Origin: Nocardioides sp. Arc9.136
GTDB lineage: Bacteria; Actinomycetota; Actinomycetes; Propionibacteriales; Nocardioidaceae
Assembly (NCBI RefSeq): GCF_030506255.1
Contig: NZ_CP113431.1
Coordinates: forward strand, 3,917,001-3,981,000
DNA length: 64,000 nucleotides
Direction: 5' to 3'
This document shows positions 18,737 through 31,376 of the stretch, piece by piece; the first letter of the stretch is position 1; each line of letters begins with the position of its first letter. Under the pieces are notes generated by a model. That model had not been told where the DNA came from. It made no database searches and saw only the letters and a program-made list of their open reading frames with translations. The translations under genes were made by a program, and so were the position numbers.

Positions 18737-20311
18737 TCAGCCGCGGCGGCGCCCGCGGATCGTCTCAAGCGGCCGGCGCGGCAGCTTGGGCAGCTGGGAG
18801 GCACGACCGTGCAGGGCGAGCAGGAGCGTCGCGACCGTCGAGTCCTGCTCGGGCGTGCGGTCGAACGTCGTGAGGTTGAGCGGCGCCTTGAACCGGGTGC
18901 GGGTGACCGCCTTGGCGTAGGTGAACTCCCGCAGCCCGTCCGGGCCGTGGATCCGTCCGAAGCCCGAGTCGCCCACCCCTCCGAACGGCAGCGTCGGCAC
19001 GCCGGCGAACGAGATCACCGAGTTGATCGACGTCATCCCCGTGCGCAGCCGCCGGGCGAGGTCGTCGCCGCGCTTGGCGGTGAAGATGGCCGAGCCCAGG
19101 CCGTACTTCCCGGCGTTGGTCAGCTCGACCGCCTCGTCCATGTCGCGCACCCTGCGCACGGTCACCGTCGGCCCGAAGGTCTCCTCGGTGACCGCCTCGC
19201 TGTCCTCTGGCACATCGACGAGGACGGTGGGCTGGACGAACCGGTCGCCGACCGCCTCGGCGCCACCCACGACGGCCCGCCCGCCCCGGGCGAGCGCGTC
19301 GTCGACGTGGCGTCGTACGACGTCGAGCTGGCCGGGCATGGTCATCGGGCCGATCTTGGCGTCGACGTCCACGCCGGCGTGCACCGAGCGGGCCCGCTCC
19401 GCGAGCAGGTCGACGAAGCGGTCGTGCACCTTCTCGTGCACGTAGACCCGCTCGACCCCGGCGCAGGTCTGGCCGGCGTTGGCGAAGGCGCCCCAGGCGG
19501 CCGCGTCGGCCGCGGCGTCGAGGTCGGCGTCCTCGTCGACGAGGAGCGCGTCCTTGCCACCGGCCTCGATGACCACCGGGGTCAGGGTCTCCGCACAGGC
19601 GGCCATCACCCGCTTGCCGGTGGCGGTCGAGCCGGTGAAGGCGATCTTGTCGGTCCCGGCCCGGCACAGCGCCGCCCCGGTCTCGCCGTACCCGGTGACG
19701 ACCTGCAGCAGGTCGTGGTCGGGCACGACCTCGCGCAGGCTGTCGGCCAGCCAGGTGCCGACGCCCGGGGTCAGCTCGCTGGGCTTGAAGACGACGGTGT
19801 TGCCGGCCGCGAGCGCGTAGGCGATCGACCCCATCGGGGTGAAGACCGGGTAGTTCCACGGGCCGATGACCCCGACGACGCCGAGCGGGAGGTACTCCAC
19901 CGACGCGGCCTGGTTGGCCAGCAGGAGGCCCGGCGAGACCCGCCTGCGGCCCAGGACCTTCGCGGCGTGCGACCCGGCCCAGGCCAGGTGGTCGATCGCG
20001 AGCGCGCACTCGAGCTGGGCGTCGCCGTGGGGCTTGCCCGTCTCCTGGTGGACCACGTCGCACAGCTGGGCCAGGCGCCGGGTGATCACGCCGCGCCACT
20101 GGGTCAGGACCTGCTGGCGGCCCTCGAAGCCCAGCCCGGCCCACCAGTCCGCGGAGGCCCGCGCCCGGGCGACGGCGGCCCGCACGTCGGCCTCGTCGTG
20201 CACGGGGTGGACACCCACCACGTCGCCGGTGGCGGGGTTGATCGACTCCAGCTTCCCGTCGGTGCCGGTGGTCGTGCCGGTGGTCGTGCCGGTGGTCGTG
20301 CCGGTGGTCAT
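18737..20311 (-). CDS. Aldehyde dehydrogenase, succinic-semialdehyde-dehydrogenase-like
   Basis: 524 aa. NAD(P)-dependent ALDH fold with general base Glu249 (VVIEAGGKDA) and nucleophile Cys283 (NAGQTCAGVERVYV), plus VIGPWNYPVF and the GSTATGKRVM cofactor loop. Closest in feel to actinobacterial GabD2-type enzymes, but coupling to a GMC alcohol oxidase suggests it oxidises the aldehyde that enzyme makes. The N-terminus begins with four TTGT repeats from a 12-bp tandem repeat. ATG 20311 overlaps the upstream stop (ATGA). Confidence 0.88.
   Translation of the reverse strand: MTTGTTTGTTTGTTTGTDGKLESINPATGDVVGVHPVHDEADVRAAVARARASADWWAGLGFEGRQQVLTQWRGVITRRLAQLCDVVHQETGKPHGDAQLECALAIDHLAWAGSHAAKVLGRRRVSPGLLLANQAASVEYLPLGVVGVIGPWNYPVFTPMGSIAYALAAGNTVVFKPSELTPGVGTWLADSLREVVPDHDLLQVVTGYGETGAALCRAGTDKIAFTGSTATGKRVMAACAETLTPVVIEAGGKDALLVDEDADLDAAADAAAWGAFANAGQTCAGVERVYVHEKVHDRFVDLLAERARSVHAGVDVDAKIGPMTMPGQLDVVRRHVDDALARGGRAVVGGAEAVGDRFVQPTVLVDVPEDSEAVTEETFGPTVTVRRVRDMDEAVELTNAGKYGLGSAIFTAKRGDDLARRLRTGMTSINSVISFAGVPTLPFGGVGDSGFGRIHGPDGLREFTYAKAVTRTRFKAPLNLTTFDRTPEQDSTVATLLLALHGRASQLPKLPRRPLETIRGRRRG
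20262..20309 (-). repeat. 12-bp tandem repeat, four perfect copies, at an ALDH start
   Basis: Four identical copies (20262-20273, 20274-20285, 20286-20297, 20298-20309) of GTGCCGGTGGTC on the plus strand, encoding Thr-Thr-Gly-Thr four times after the initiating Met. A multiple of three, so copy-number change would alter only the length of the N-terminal tail. Confidence 0.95.
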
Positions 20312-21912
20312 CGGAGGGCCTTTCCGCGGAGGAGGTCGGCGGCGCGCTCGCCGATCATGATCGTGGGGGCGTTGGTGTTGCCGCGCGTCACCATCGGCAT
20401 CACGCTGGCGTCCGCGACCCGGAGGCCGTCGACGCCGCGCACCCGCAGCTCGGGGTCGACGACGGAGCGCTCGTCGTCACCCATCGCGCAGGTGCCGACG
20501 GGGTGGTAGAGCGTCTGGGTGTAGCTCCGGACGTGCTCGACGACCTGCGCGTCGGTCGGGTCCTCGCCCCAGGTCTCCATCGTCGGCAGGCCGGGGCCGG
20601 TGACGTGGTCGGCCAGCGGCCCCGTGGCGACGGTCTCGAGCATCCGGCGCACGCCGGCCGTCATCGCGTCGAGGTCCGCCTGGTCGTCGTAGTAGCCCGG
20701 GTCGATCTCGGGGTGCCAGCGCGGGTCGGTCGAGCGCAGCCGCAGGGCCCCCCGGCTCGCGACCGAGACCAGCGTCGGTGCGACGGTGACCTTCCGGGCG
20801 GTCGCCTCGTGCAGCCCGTTGTCGTAGAAGCCGGTCGGCGCGACGTGGACCTGCAGGTCCGGTGCGGCCAGATCGTCGCGGGTGCGCCAGAAGCCGCCCC
20901 CCTCGCCGATGTTGGAGACCAGGGGGCCGGTGCCGGTGGCCTTCGCGCGCGCCAGCTGCAGCAGGTTGTTGTGGTCCATCAGGTCGCTGGTGCCGCGGGT
21001 GGCGAAGACGAGCGGCACGGCCGGGTGGTCGTGCAGGTTCTGCCCGACGCCGGGCAGGTCGACGACCACGTCGACGCCCACCTCCCGCAGGTGCGCGCCC
21101 GGCCCGATGCCGGAGAGCATCAAGAGCTGCGGGGAGTTCACCGCCCCTCCCGCGAGCACCACCTCCCCCTCGACGTACGCCGTGCGCGTGCCGGCGCCGT
21201 GCTGGTAGGCGACGCCCACGGCGCGGCCGCCCTCGACGACGACCCGCTCGGCGAGGGCCCCGGTGCGGACCGTCAGGTTGGGACGGTCGGCCGCGGGGTC
21301 GAGGTAGGCCCGGGCCGTCGACCAGCGGCGGCCCTTGCGGCAGGTGACCTGGTAGAGCCCGGCACCCTCCTGCTCGGCGCCGTTGAAGTCGTCGGTCGGC
21401 TTGAAGCCGGCGGCGACGGCCGACTCGACCCAGGCGGTGGTCAGCGGATGGGTGTAGCGACGGTCCTCCACGTGCAGCGGTCCGTCCTGGCCGTGGAAGG
21501 GCCCGGCCAGGCGGGTGTTGCCCTCCGCGCGGACGAAGTACGGCAGCACGTCGTCGTAGCCCCAGCCGGTCGCGCCGTACGCGTCGCGCCAGGTGTCGTA
21601 GTCCGCCCGGTTGCCGCGGATGTAGATCATCGCGTTCATCGACGAGCAGCCGCCGAGCGCCTTCATCCTCGGCCAGTAGGCGCGGCGGCTCTCGAGCTGC
21701 TTCTGCTCCGAGGTCTGGTAGTTCCAGTCCCACCGCGTCTTGAACAGGTTCGCGAACGCCGCCGGGATGCTGATCTCGTCGGCGTCGGCCGCCCCGCCGG
21801 CCTCCAGGAGCAGCACCGAGACCGACGGGTCCTCGGTCAGCCGTGCGGCGACGACCGCGCCGGCGCTGCCGGCTCCGACCACCACGTGGGTGAAGACTTC
21901 CCGGTCCGGCAC
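20308..21912 (-). CDS. GMC family oxidoreductase (choline dehydrogenase-like)
   Basis: 534 aa. FAD-dependent alcohol oxidase/dehydrogenase: [20 protein letters not shown] at the N-terminus, the GMC signature around [20 protein letters not shown], a second signature [17 protein letters not shown], and the active-site pair in [10 protein letters not shown] and [14 protein letters not shown] 21912 has AGGAGGA 5 nt upstream. The following ALDH gene overlaps it by 4 nt, so alcohol to aldehyde to acid is a likely two-step route (choline, polyethylene glycol or long-chain alcohols are all possible). Confidence 0.9.
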
Positions 21913-22679: not shown

Positions 22680-23111
22680 TCAGGAGGCGAAGACGATCTG
22701 AGCGGTCACCCGGACCGTGCCGTCGTCCAGGTCGACCCCCCACTGCTCGCAGACGTGGTCGACGATGGCCAACCCACGACCCCGGGCGGCGAACTGGGAC
22801 GCCTCGCCCGGCTGGAACCGGTCGAGGACCTCCTCGCCCACCTCGGGGTCGACGTCGCCCGCCACGGTCAGCCGGGCCCCGGTGTCGTAGAGGCACCACG
22901 TCGCCTCGACGTGGCCGCAGCCGTGGGGCGGGCCGTGCTCGACGGCGTTGCTGGCCAGCTCGGAGAAGACCAGGACCACGTCCTGGGCCGCACGCCGGTC
23001 CAGCTCGGCCTGCTCGAGGTCCTGGACCAGGGCTCGGCGCGCGTCGGCCACCGCGGCCAGGTCGTGCCACAGGTGCACGCGGGTGCACGGGTCCTGCTCG
23101 AGGGCGGTCAT
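22680..23111 (-). CDS. Small anti-sigma-type ATP-binding protein (HATPase)
   Basis: 143 aa, a stand-alone GHKL ATPase domain. N box VVLVFSELASNAVEHGPPHG, a GDVDPE segment in place of the usual DNG/DxG box, and AARGRGLAIVDHVCEQWGVD as the glycine motif. Such proteins act as serine kinases of STAS partners and hold sigma factors. The first half of the Bergerat fold is well kept. ATG 23111 is the likely start. It lies next to the DUF5709 gene and in a window that also has a STAS gene (31846-32172); a functional link is inferred only. Confidence 0.85.
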   Translation of the reverse strand: MTALEQDPCTRVHLWHDLAAVADARRALVQDLEQAELDRRAAQDVVLVFSELASNAVEHGPPHGCGHVEATWCLYDTGARLTVAGDVDPEVGEEVLDRFQPGEASQFAARGRGLAIVDHVCEQWGVDLDDGTVRVTAQIVFAS

Positions 23112-23162
23112 GCACCCCCGGTGAGCGGACCCGGCCCGCCCCAAACGGGCGAGGCGCTGCGC

Positions 23163-23309
23163 TCAGCCCTCCTGCTCGCCGCGCCACCGCAGGTAGAACA
23201 CGGTGAGGAAGGCGACGAGCAGCGGCCCGAACGCGAGGAGCAGCACGAGGAACCCCTCGCCCCCGTGCAGGGCGCCCATGTGCAGCGGCGCGGTCGGCCC
23301 GACCGTCAT
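23163..23309 (-). CDS. 48-aa single-TM protein, coupled to the membrane protein upstream
   Basis: Encodes a His-containing N-terminus (PLHMGALHGG), one hydrophobic segment (FLVLLLAFGPLLVAFLTVFY) and a charged tail. ATG 23309 overlaps the stop of the large membrane protein (ATGA), so the two are translated together. The short length and coupling suggest an accessory subunit or stabiliser of that protein. No family recognised. Confidence 0.65.
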   Translation of the reverse strand: MTVGPTAPLHMGALHGGEGFLVLLLAFGPLLVAFLTVFYLRWRGEQEG

Positions 23310-25135
23310 GCCGGCACCTTCGGGGCGGTCACGGAGCCCACGTCCGGACGCGTCGCCCGCGCGAACCGGGTGACGCCCCAGCCCAGGCCCAGGACCAGGG
23401 CGAGGGAGCAGAGCAGGACCACCGAGCCCGCCGCGAGCCACAGCCACCCCGGGACGTCGTCGGAGAGCTCGCGCTGGAGCAGCAGCTTCTCCTCGTCGAA
23501 GGGGCGCGTGCCGTCCTCGACCGGGATCTCCGGCTCACCGAGCGCGGTGTCCTCGGGCAGGTAGACCGGCATCGCGGTGAGGTCACGGCCGTCGTGCAGC
23601 CGCACCATGGTCTTCCAGCCGTCGTCGGCCGGCACCGACCGGGTCGTGCGCCACACCCCGGGGCCGGTCTCCTCGAGGTGGTCGACGACCAGCCCCTCGC
23701 TCCCCTGGCCGCCCTGCCACCCGGTGACGGTGAGCCAGGCCGGCGCCCCGGAGACGGCGTCCTGGTCGAGGCGCACCTCGAGGTCGACCTCCCCACCGCC
23801 CGCGTCGGCCACCGCGACGGTGCCCTCCAGGTCGCTGGGCTGGGTCGCGAGCACCCCGTTGGTCGCACACGCGGCGATCGCGGCCAGCGCGAGCGCAAAG
23901 AGCAGCCGCGGACGCAGGGCGTCGGGCAGGTCGCGCCGCAGACCCCGAACCAGCAGCCCGCCGAGCAGGCCGGCGGCAGCACCGGCCACGGTCGCCATGG
24001 CGACACCCTCGACCGCGATGTCCGAGGTCCACGGGAGGGGGAACGCGACCTGGGTCCAGGCGTGCTCCGCGGCGTACCCCACGGTGCCGATGAGGACGCC
24101 GCTGGTCACGCCGAAGGCGACGGGACGGTGCGCGAGCCGGAGGGCGACCAGCTCGACGACGACCGCCTCGGCGAGGTAGAGCGGCACCGAGGCCCACAGC
24201 TCGCCGAGCACCGGGCCGACGACGACGCTCACGCCGCCGCGGACCACGAGGTAGAACAGCACCGCGGCGATCGCCGCGCCCCGGCCGATCCACAGCCGGG
24301 CGACGACCAGGCTGAAGGCCGCGGCGAGCGCGATGAGGAAGGGCTGGAGCACCAGGCGGAACTGCGGCACCCCGAAGTCGAACTCCGCCTGGAACACGCT
24401 CATCCCGATCAGCAGACCGCCGACCAGGCACGCCTTGAGCACGTACGTCGCCACCGGGCTGGTCCGCCTGCCGGTGCGCTCGGTGGCCGTGCGGCCCTCC
24501 TCGAACAGCACCGCCATCGCCACCAGCGACAGACCGGCGCCCCCGATGAGCATCAGGTGGGTCGGGCCCCACAGGGTCACGTCCTGGCCGAAGATCCGGT
24601 GCCACACGTCGTCGAGCGGGAAGCCCAGGAGCGCGTAGGTGCCTGCTCCGGTGAGCAGCACGCCGCCGGCCGGGGCGTTCCACCCCGGGGCGAGGCGCAC
24701 GCCCGAGGGCCCGACCTCGTCCTGCCGCGGGAGGGCGCACGCCAGCACGCCCGCCGCGGAGATGCCGAAGAGCCCGAAGAGGATCGGGTAGTGGGCCGGG
24801 TTGGCCAGCGGCCCCTCGTCGCGGCCGATCCCGATGTGCAGCGCGATGTCCCAGTACATCCCCAGCAGGGCGGTGATCAGCGAGACCATCGCCACCATCA
24901 GCGGCACCTGCGCCCACGGGGCGAGGGTGCCGAAGAACCGGGAGCGGTCCATCCGCTCCATCAGCCGGGTCAGCGCGGGCAGCCGGCCGGAGCGGTGGGC
25001 GACCACGACCACGCCGAGCGCGATCGTCATGAGGAGCGCCAGGCCGGAGGCGAGCGCGACCTCGCCGAGGGCGGCAGCGCCCGCGGGCCGGTCCTCGACC
25101 GCGGTCGGCACGGCGGGGGTCTCGGAGAACAACAT
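23306..25135 (-). CDS. Polytopic membrane protein with duplicated HxxxGxD...PxH motif, unknown function
   Basis: 609 aa with about 12 hydrophobic segments. Two stretches share the pattern H-x3-G-x-D-x(5-6)-P-x-H: HIGIGRD...NPAH (near residue 97) and HRIFGQD...GPTH (near 182), followed by similar helices (YPILFGLFG, LMLIGGAGL). His/Asp pairs facing a helix bundle suggest a metal or haem site. Residues about 430-540 form a soluble beta-rich extracytoplasmic domain (AWLTVTGWQ, WKTMVRLHDGRDLTA) before a last TM helix. Start ATG 25135. Divergent from a MerR regulator. Not assigned to a named family. Confidence 0.8.
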   Translation of the reverse strand: MLFSETPAVPTAVEDRPAGAAALGEVALASGLALLMTIALGVVVVAHRSGRLPALTRLMERMDRSRFFGTLAPWAQVPLMVAMVSLITALLGMYWDIALHIGIGRDEGPLANPAHYPILFGLFGISAAGVLACALPRQDEVGPSGVRLAPGWNAPAGGVLLTGAGTYALLGFPLDDVWHRIFGQDVTLWGPTHLMLIGGAGLSLVAMAVLFEEGRTATERTGRRTSPVATYVLKACLVGGLLIGMSVFQAEFDFGVPQFRLVLQPFLIALAAAFSLVVARLWIGRGAAIAAVLFYLVVRGGVSVVVGPVLGELWASVPLYLAEAVVVELVALRLAHRPVAFGVTSGVLIGTVGYAAEHAWTQVAFPLPWTSDIAVEGVAMATVAGAAAGLLGGLLVRGLRRDLPDALRPRLLFALALAAIAACATNGVLATQPSDLEGTVAVADAGGGEVDLEVRLDQDAVSGAPAWLTVTGWQGGQGSEGLVVDHLEETGPGVWRTTRSVPADDGWKTMVRLHDGRDLTAMPVYLPEDTALGEPEIPVEDGTRPFDEEKLLLQRELSDDVPGWLWLAAGSVVLLCSLALVLGLGWGVTRFARATRPDVGSVTAPKVPA

Positions 25136-25143
25136 GCTTCTAT

Positions 25144-25163
25144 GTAACATCGTTCGATGCAAC
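25144..25163. promoter_or_regulatory. Dyad operator candidate between MerR gene and membrane protein gene
   Basis: CATCG (25148-25152), TT, CGATG (25155-25159) is a perfect inverted repeat; matching continues imperfectly to 25144-25163. It overlaps the -35 box of the MerR gene and lies 9 nt from the ATG of the membrane protein, so bound protein could affect both directions. Confidence 0.5.
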
Positions 25164-25181
25164 CGTGGCAAGGGCTAGGAT
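25153..25181 (+). promoter_or_regulatory. Promoter of the MerR gene
   Basis: TTCGAT (25153-25158), 17-nt spacer, TAGGAT (25176-25181). The start codon GTG begins 6 nt after the -10 box, consistent with a leaderless mRNA. Confidence 0.6.
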
Positions 25182-25187
25182 CGCGCC

Positions 25188-26000
25188 GTGGTCCACGACA
25201 CGTCCTCCCCCAGCGGGGAGACGGCGCCAGCGGGCCCTGCCGGGGCCGGTGAGCCGGGTACCGACGAGGTGTTCGTCGTCGAGGAGCTCGCGCGGCGCAC
25301 CGGTGTCTCGGTCCGCTCCCTGCGCAGCTACCAGTCCCGCAGGCTGCTGCCCCCACCGCACCTCCGCGGACGCACCGGCTTCTACGGGCCCGAGCACGTC
25401 GAGCGGGTCCGCCTGGTCCAGCAGCTGCGCGCCGCCGGCCTCAAGCTCGACGGGATCGCCCGGATGCTCGACCGGGACACGACGGCGGACGGGCAGCTGC
25501 TCGCCTTCACCGAGCACGCGCGCGGGATGTTCAGCGCACCCGAGCCGGAGGTCACCACGCTGGCCGACCTCGTCGACCGCTTCCGGCTGCAGGCCGACGA
25601 CGCCGGCGAGGTGCTGGCCACGGCGCTCCGCCTCGGCCTCGTGCGAGAGGCGCCCGACGCCGCGGACGGCGAGCCGCAGGTCGAGGTGGTCGCACCGGCC
25701 CTCCTGATCGCGGGCGAGGAGGCCATGCGCCTGCTCGGGCTGGACGCGCCCGGAGCCCTCGACCTCCTCGAGCGGCTCCGGCGGCACGCCGACGGAGTGG
25801 CCAAGCTGTACGTCGAGCTCTTCGTCGACCGCGTGTGGCAGCCGTTCGTCGACGCGGGCAAGCCGGCCGTCGCTTGGCCCGACGTCGAGCAGGCCCTCGA
25901 CGACCTGCGCCAGCTGGCGACGCGGGCCCTGCAGAGCACGTTCGACCTCGCGATGGTCACCCGGGTCGACCGGGTGCTCGGCGAGCGCCTGCTCGGCTGA
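25188..26000 (+). CDS. MerR family transcriptional regulator
   Basis: 270 aa. Disordered N-tail of about 25 residues, then the MerR winged helix (VEELARRTGVSVRSLRSYQS, then RTGFYGPEHVERVRLVQQLR, AGLKLDGIARML). Unlike short MerR proteins it has a long C-terminal part (about 100-270) with a repeated helical domain, suggesting ligand binding. No cysteine is seen in the C-terminal half, so a classical metal thiolate site is unlikely. GTG 25188 is leaderless. The divergent membrane protein gene is the probable target. Confidence 0.87.
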   Translation: MVHDTSSPSGETAPAGPAGAGEPGTDEVFVVEELARRTGVSVRSLRSYQSRRLLPPPHLRGRTGFYGPEHVERVRLVQQLRAAGLKLDGIARMLDRDTTADGQLLAFTEHARGMFSAPEPEVTTLADLVDRFRLQADDAGEVLATALRLGLVREAPDAADGEPQVEVVAPALLIAGEEAMRLLGLDAPGALDLLERLRRHADGVAKLYVELFVDRVWQPFVDAGKPAVAWPDVEQALDDLRQLATRALQSTFDLAMVTRVDRVLGERLLG

Positions 26001-26099: not shown

Positions 26100-26218
26100 T
26101 GTCCGGCGGCGTCCTACTCTCCCACAACCTCGCGGTTGCAGTACCATCGGCGCTGAAAGGCTTAACTTCCGGGTTCGGGATGGGACCGGGTGTTTCCCTT
26201 TCGCTATGGCCGCCGTAA
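26100..26218 (-). rRNA. rrf: 5S ribosomal RNA
   Basis: About 119 nt, minus strand, starting TTACGGCGGCCA and containing the conserved CCCGGTCCCATCCCGAAC and AAGTTAAGCC blocks. Ends are estimated by comparison with remembered actinobacterial 5S sequences, good to a few nt. Confidence 0.93.
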
Positions 26219-26346
26219 CTCTAACGGACCATGCGGTCTCGGGACGCCTGGTGGCGCACCGACCGCACAGACCAAGTCTGGCGTGTTCTGGATTCGTGGA
26301 CGCGAGCACTCGTGCAACGTGGTTGTTGTCTTGGTTGAGTGGTTGT

Positions 26347-31376
<5,030 letters not shown>

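Follow-up and report, generated by a model that had tools for sequence, protein, structure and literature searches.

Genes and conserved features of the c0 locus

The locus described here lies in a 64,000-nucleotide stretch (hereafter the window) of the 4.41-Mb genome of Nocardioides sp. Arc9.136 (G000:C1:3917001-3981000). At its centre is a gene for a 609-amino acid polytopic membrane protein, here termed c0, which reads on the minus strand from an ATG at 25135 to a stop at 23306; the working form of the protein, P0001, carries one leading residue more than the 609-residue form. The c0 stop is overlapped by 4 nt (ATGA) by the start of a gene encoding a 48-amino acid protein with a single transmembrane (TM) helix and N-terminal His residues (23309-23163, minus strand). 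Divergent from c0 is a gene for a 270-amino acid MerR-type regulator (25188-26000, plus strand), the DNA-binding domain of which matched Pfam MerR_1 (PF13411; E 4e-18, 65.6 bits against a cut-off of 21.6). The initial annotation had described these three genes, and the open reading frames (ORFs), the overlap and the Pfam match confirmed each of them. Its statement that no named family could be recognised for the membrane protein also held, as profile and sequence searches of Pfam (0 families at E<=1), NCBIfam, PHROGs and PDB sequences matched c0 to no known characterised family.

A scan of genome contigs gave 160 stretches encoding c0 relatives, and among the best 80 of these, which were kept, the closest named relative was from Nocardioides oceani (92% identity). 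The gene was present in 44 of the 396 genomes of an even sample of the phylum, approximately one in nine, and in 23 of 96 close-relative genomes (own genome counted) representing two of ten genera, and is thus patchily distributed within its own genus. A c0-MerR pair was also seen in a record labelled as a Bifidobacterium breve metagenome-assembled genome (MAG; L091, CAMCUD010000026.1), which is probably a mis-binned contig. Literature searches on distant relatives of the copper membrane monooxygenases (CuMMOs), which included PMC6215863, PMC12533140, PMC10030591 and PMC9038741 but did not extend to subscription journals or preprints, yielded no description of the family.

An AlphaFold2 model generated from 43 sequences (mean pLDDT 84.9, pTM 0.88) predicted approximately 12 TM helices and an extracytoplasmic beta domain at around residues 433-548 followed by the last TM helix. 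By loop charge, the loops after TM1 and TM3 were assigned to the inside (mean Lys+Arg 4.3 and 3.6, respectively) and the TM2/TM3 loop, the TM4/TM5 loop and the acidic beta domain to the outside. Conservation was assessed over 75 homologs, comprising the 43 of the alignment and 32 from further loci, and two motifs were invariant in all 75. Motif 1 (24791..24850, minus strand) has the pattern D96-x3-H100-x4-R-D-x8-H115, with R105 and D106 following the first His, and lies at the outer TM2/TM3 turn; motif 2 (24557..24613, minus strand) has the pattern D175-x2-W-H179-x5-D-x5-P-x-H193, including W178, D185 and P191, and lies at the outer TM4/TM5 turn. Both are thus outer-facing by the charge assignment. 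Further invariant residues were G104 near motif 1, G183, V186 and W189 near motif 2, and E213, E251, R280, E328, Q474, K508, D529, R555 and E556 elsewhere; Cys and Met are absent from the positions conserved in at least 93% of homologs. Judged by sequence, the two Asp-His...His sets, which sit at the outward tips of successive hairpins, resemble metal sites.

Correspondence of the c0 motifs with PmoC and AmoC

According to PMC12576850, the CuC site of particulate methane monooxygenase (pMMO) is bound by PmoC residues Asp156, His160 and His173, and the CuD site by Asn227, His231 and His245. The PmoC/AmoC/HmoC subunits of the CuMMOs (PF04896) resemble c0 in having two consecutive TM hairpins carrying [DN]-x3-H...H sets in the same order, with an Arg and an Asp after the first His of site 1 and a P-x-H in site 2. 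Nine AmoC-type proteins (eight encoded on plasmids and one in a same-genus genome) were aligned, and their invariant residues (L108 numbering) included D149, W152, H153, R158, D159 and H166 for the first site and N223, H227, E233, P239 and H241 for the second. Motif 1 of c0 shares D-x3-H-x4-R-D...H with AmoC, whilst motif 2 shares D-x2-W-H-x5-D...P-x-H and its H-x13-H has the spacing of CuD. The CuC-type pattern D-x3-H...H at a TM hairpin therefore appears twice in c0, as D96/H100/H115 and D175/H179/H193, in 75 of 75 homologs. Unlike PmoC and AmoC, c0 is a 609-residue protein in which approximately 13 TM helices are joined to a beta domain, and it has no PF04896 match; its site 2 has Asp in place of Asn and its first hairpin is two residues longer.

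When blocks of the AmoC alignment were slid along c0, the 11-column CuC block matched best at residues 96-106 (z 5.6) and next best at 175-185 (z 5.2), the third placement reaching 3.5, and the second-His block placed 112-124 first (z 5.3) followed by 190-202 (z 3.4). Comparison of all windows of c0 with AmoC put motif 1 pairs at or near the top. A two-block scan placed its best match at motif 1 in 29 of the 75 c0 proteins and at motif 2 in 46, and 62 of the 75 scored above the best of 1317 other ORFs serving as decoys, some of which are wrong-frame ORFs from a crude GC-position gene caller. With hhalign, motif 1 of the 75-sequence c0 alignment fell on the CuC ligands unprompted; reversed profiles scored far lower, the 43-sequence alignment gave E 0.094 against AmoC, and nothing was found against AmoA and AmoB profiles.

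When the 75 c0 proteins were searched together with the 1317 other ORFs, an AmoC hidden Markov model (HMM) placed c0 proteins at ranks 1-9 (best E 0.036); conversely, a c0 HMM searched against 20 CuMMO AmoA/B/C proteins and the same ORFs returned AmoC at ranks 1 and 2 (E 0.015 and 0.12). By blastp, 14 of the 75 c0 proteins reached AmoC at E<=1 (best 0.003), and none reached AmoA. Some of these alignments, such as that of L003, pair motif 1 with CuC and continue to a pairing of motif 2 with CuD; that of the window c0 sets motif 2 on CuC, which an internal repeat would allow. No AmoC relatives were found in viral contigs (close-relative search) or in phages (tblastn). Taken on sequence comparison, the rank order of AmoC and c0 is telling, the E-values are not decisive, and no single statistic proves homology to PmoC.

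Partner genes, promoter and regulator

Neighbours were counted by tblastn over 127 distinct c0 loci, obtained from 131 by removal of four duplicate places, of which the longer copies were retained; no further pair was 98% identical over >500 bases of c0. A small TM ORF follows c0 in 73 of 126 distinct places, mostly with the 4-nt overlap, N-terminal His and a basic tail (a count corrected by eye from 76 matches, 68 with the 4-nt overlap, as the matches in L069 and L082 are in fact the lipoprotein c2 described below and L135 duplicates L002). Small TM proteins likewise accompany the archaeal ammonia monooxygenase (AMO), where AmoX, AmoY and AmoZ are described (PMC10030591), although the likeness to the 48-residue partner is one of analogy only. 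In the window, a gene for a small protein with an anti-sigma-kinase-like HATPase_c_2 domain (22680-23144, minus strand; Pfam E 3e-13) lies 18 nt 3' of the 48-residue gene and is possibly on the same transcript.

Two further proteins recur beside c0. The first, c1, is a second polytopic protein of approximately 434 residues with no Pfam family above cut-off, found within 2.5 kb of c0 in 63 of the 127 loci, a count that may miss c1 in the 20 loci shorter than 5.2 kb; Rhodococcus jostii NBRC 16295 (L079) is among the strains with c0 and c1 together. The second, c2, is a cupredoxin-like lipoprotein found within 1.5 kb of c0 in 55 of the 127; three c2 proteins were scanned and all matched Cupredoxin_1 below cut-off, with one narrowly passing the cut-off of Cu-oxidase_2. 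In the phylum sample, c1 was present in 23 of 44 genomes with c0 and in 53 of 352 without it (Fisher p 1.3e-7, relatedness not corrected for). Five actinobacterial CuMMO operons had their flanks read, those of Mycobacterium dioxanotrophicus, G011, Mycolicibacterium chubuense NBB4, Rhodococcus ZPP and WAY2. Each has a c2-c1 pair within approximately 10 kb (at approximately 1 kb in M. dioxanotrophicus), and every c1 near a CuMMO has c2 before it. Against this association, among the phylum sample's three CuMMO genomes G123 alone contains a c1 match, which is on a different contig, and weak relatives of c1 were found on haloarchaeal and rhizobial plasmids as well. Two such pairs beside CuMMO operons on actinobacterial plasmids (L147 2045-3948 and L109 7552-9347) are annotated as hypothetical only and are candidate accessory genes for hydrocarbon monooxygenase. 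On the JOB5 plasmid, c0 itself follows a CopC gene within an island that also contains oxidase and assembly genes, and another c0 relative follows a cupredoxin gene. Identification of c1 as a 'fenitrothion hydrolase' was considered and dropped after a literature search gave nothing usable.

The window genome has two c2-c1 pairs, both away from c0. In one of these (L107; G000:C1:2293000-2309000), c2 and c1 are clustered with TlpA-like, VKOR-like and DUF305-like genes and two cation-diffusion facilitators (by eye), and this is likely a copper/metal island. The small TM protein after c1 at this place starts LHLGPLHP, resembling the 48-residue protein.

A link to dehydrogenases was observed in other relatives, with the reservation that neighbour lists are approximate and include several wrong-frame ORFs from the gene caller. 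In two of the 75 homologs, from different families, c0 is fused in frame to a complete C-terminal short-chain dehydrogenase (SDR; L119 4678-7224 and L125 717-3416, both minus strand; adh_short matches at E 6e-37 and 6e-35); both fusions are open frames without a stop, in which sequencing error is possible. The nearest free relative of the fused domain is an SDR gene located 3' of c0 in a same-order genus, together with a hydrolase; 18 of the 100 loci of the first set (Actinomadura-type) have a different SDR gene immediately after c0. Such an association would fit an oxygenase making an alcohol that the dehydrogenase takes up, and would not fit a copper chaperone. A lipid or terpene substrate was set aside: it is suggested by neighbours only (SDR, hydrolase, acyl-CoA dehydrogenase and fatty acid desaturase genes, with flavin monooxygenase-like fragments by eye), and some c0 loci adjoin unrelated genes such as those for glutamine synthetase or flagella (by eye).

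Between the divergent c0 and MerR genes, a promoter-like site for c0 was recognised from the sequence and from relatives (25141..25171, minus strand), consisting of TTGCCA (25171-25166), a 19-bp spacer and TACATA (25146-25141), the latter followed by 5 nt and then the ATG, so that the c0 transcript is apparently leaderless. A scan for sigma-70 consensus promoters with spacers of 16-18 bp only found none in 23000-25400. The spacer holds an operator-like dyad, GCATCGAACGATGTTACAT (25142..25160, minus strand), which overlaps the -10 element. Its core, CATCGTTCGATG at 25148-25159, was the sole match in the window; this alone is not beyond chance (0.09 expected; present in 9 of 100 shuffles), and the dyad is therefore argued from its conservation in relatives. 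The 19-bp spacer is kept in 10 of 11 other Nocardioides-type loci (L002 reads 18) and in the MAG locus L062. Over 38 places, the spacer pattern fitted 19 bp in 11 and 18 bp in 10 and had no match in 17, the window among them since its stretch ended before the ATG; the -35 side was cut in some others. The core also overlaps, as had been proposed in the initial annotation, a plausible -35 of MerR (by eye: TTCGAT at 25153-25158, 17 bp, TAGGAT at 25176-25181). A long spacer with a central dyad is a hallmark of MerR activation. With up to 3 mismatches allowed, the extended operator occurs only once in the genome, and the c1 and c2 genes elsewhere in the genome therefore do not share it.

Of the 127 loci, 44 have a MerR homolog within 1 kb of c0, which in 39 cases is upstream and divergent. 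The local regulator of c0 is very probably this MerR. It shares with CueR/SoxR-type activators the MerR_1 domain and, in a divergent promoter, a 19-bp spacer that contains a dyad. Unlike CueR, SoxR and ZntR, it has 270 residues, an unnamed C-terminal domain and no conserved C-terminal Cys ligands, and all 17 NCBIfam matches listed for it, including the CueR, SoxR, ZntR and MerR models, were below cut-off. The annotated absence of C-terminal Cys ligands in fact extends to the whole protein, which contains no Cys. Within the genome, the two paralogs that match it over the greatest length are neighboured by genes for acyl-CoA dehydrogenase and thiolase (thiolase by eye). The lack of Cys and the paralogs beside acyl-metabolism genes suggest that its ligand is more probably an organic or acyl compound than a metal, and the metal or redox signal that had been anticipated is not supported. 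The proposal of a candidate new system was borne out in so far as the family is conserved, no description of it was found and MerR very probably acts locally; the recurring three-gene set on which it was based is, however, only one of its forms, a MerR homolog being near c0 in 44 of the 127 loci and c1 in 63.

Elsewhere in the window, an rrn operon lies beside the MerR/c0 locus (16S 29854-31372, 23S 26346-29486 and 5S 26101-26217, all minus strand), and adjacent GMC oxidoreductase and aldehyde dehydrogenase genes at 18737-21912 (minus strand, by eye) resemble a choline-to-betaine pathway.

Candidate functions of c0

We tentatively favour, with somewhat less than even confidence, the interpretation that c0 forms the centre of a metalloenzyme complex facing the extracytoplasmic side. 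This would most likely be a membrane oxidoreductase or oxygenase that depends on copper, is remotely related to PmoC/AmoC and is induced by an organic ligand. The ligand sets, their place at the outer face, the reciprocal profile ranks, a hint from the fold, the dehydrogenase fusions and the c1/c2 neighbours in common with CuMMO operons agree with this interpretation, in which copper and redox activity are inferred. Within TM2-TM5, two hairpins would each bear an Asp-His...His set, arranged like CuC and CuD of PmoC; the 48-residue protein would be a small subunit bringing its N-terminal His to the same face, and the beta domain would cap the metal site. In some relatives the fused or adjacent SDR would take up an alcohol product, and in many c2 and c1 would probably supply copper or electrons. 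The Cys-free MerR would sit on the dyad in the over-long 19-bp spacer, and binding of an organic, perhaps acyl or lipid-like, ligand would realign the promoter and switch on c0 and the small gene. By membership, c0 is not a CuMMO, as it has no AmoC model match (PF04896 matched nothing in this genome), no A/B partners and no sign of the CuB histidines.

A number of observations weigh against a PmoC-like copper oxidoreductase. The CuD block placed c0 residues 175-193 first, but with z 3.5 against 3.3 for the next, and with wider flanks not first; in long windows some plain TM pairs scored as high as the motif pair; and the two-block score of the window c0, 15.6, compares with 15.2 at the 99.9th percentile and a maximum of 24.5 for shuffled c0. 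The c0-AmoC hhalign match was weak (P ~0.009, probability <5%, with 3 of 300 column shuffles equally good), the HMM E-values were at best 0.036 and 0.015 with decoys from rank 3 in the c0-to-AmoC direction, and the best blastp match was a decoy for 39 of the 51 c0 queries with any match and AmoC for 12. No AmoA or AmoB partner was present at c0 loci, and tblastn with seven CuMMO subunits (AmoA/B/C) against the whole window and the 131 c0 loci found none at E<=0.01. The beta domain has no invariant His, nor any His, Met or Cys conserved in 93% of homologs. Neither MerR nor c1 was nearby in 28 of the 127 loci.

Fold comparison was similarly equivocal. Foldseek of c0 against PDB gave 321 rows at E<=10 and none at E<=0.001. 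VIA-align over the top Foldseek chains (998 aligned) left four at Z>=8, namely 4phz_B (13.6), 3rfr_B (13.5), 9cl1_Ca (13.2) and an unrelated protein (8.7), with values near 13 being reachable by chance for helical bundles. The three pMMO chains are PmoA rather than PmoC (4phz_B and 9cl1_Ca by name, 3rfr_B by its sister chain J), and their alignments cover shifting ranges of c0 (51-402, 56-599 and 220-598) at rmsd 4.5-6.8. As one best chain is shown per entry and PmoC chains were not among the rows listed, this comparison is no test of PmoC.

The principal alternative, a serious one although we consider it less likely, is that c0 and its partners handle copper, through import, storage or delivery to terminal oxidases or CuMMOs, without catalysis of their own. 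The c2-c1 pairs near CuMMO operons, the CopC-linked island of JOB5 and the VKOR-like, TlpA-like and DUF305-like neighbours of one pair in the window genome would all suit such a role. The modelled beta domain also aligns with the copper-resistance protein CrdA (9ll4, Z 6.6) and with a FixH-CcoH-like protein (9g6b chain C of the cbb3-2 NOH complex, Z 7.2; taken as CcoH from the entry title), although these values are middling and the domain lacks the conserved His, Met or Cys noted above. Copper handling is, however, less easily reconciled with the absence of Cys and Met from the highly conserved residues of c0 and with a Cys-free regulator whose paralogs lie beside acyl-metabolism genes, and an SDR that is fused to c0 in two homologs, directly follows it in 18 of 100 loci or accompanies it with a hydrolase in the same-order genus fits an enzyme better.

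A convergent origin of the likeness to PmoC, with c0 being a zinc or iron membrane metalloenzyme such as a hydrolase, transferase or non-copper oxygenase, appears unlikely. D-x3-H...H sets can bind several metals, and no homology statistic between c0 and AmoC is decisive; against this, c0 and AmoC have in common the non-ligand positions R105, D106, W178 and P191, and rank each other first in HMM searches, the pMMO rows stand apart in VIA-align, and the cupredoxin-like lipoprotein c2 is linked to c0. The possibility that c0 is a transporter or efflux pump under MerR control, with the small TM protein as an accessory, can be largely discounted, since, although 12-13 TM helices with a MerR partner are a common drug-pump arrangement, c0 matches no transporter family in Pfam or NCBIfam, transporter chains in its Foldseek list reach only E 0.24 or worse with TM-score <=0.2, and its invariant residues form metal-type sets at the outer face.

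The interpretation of c0 as a copper-dependent oxidoreductase may be extended, more doubtfully, to a branch of the copper membrane monooxygenase superfamily that consists of a single chain and has so far gone unrecognised. Such a protein would unite a two-site core like that of PmoC, additional helices of PmoA type and a beta cap, and in some relatives would carry a fused alcohol dehydrogenase; it would have a minimal one-helix subunit, a copper supply shared through c1 and c2 and a lipid-type inducer acting via MerR, oxidising hydrophobic substrates larger than methane or ammonia. Whether the active site of pMMO and AMO is located at CuB, CuC or CuD has long been debated. A natural protein with CuC/CuD-type hairpins and without PmoA/PmoB partners or evident CuB histidines would offer a simple system in which to test these sites alone and, if c0 is indeed a copper oxidoreductase, this would give a function to a family for which no name was found and which is present in 44 of the 396 sampled genomes of the phylum.

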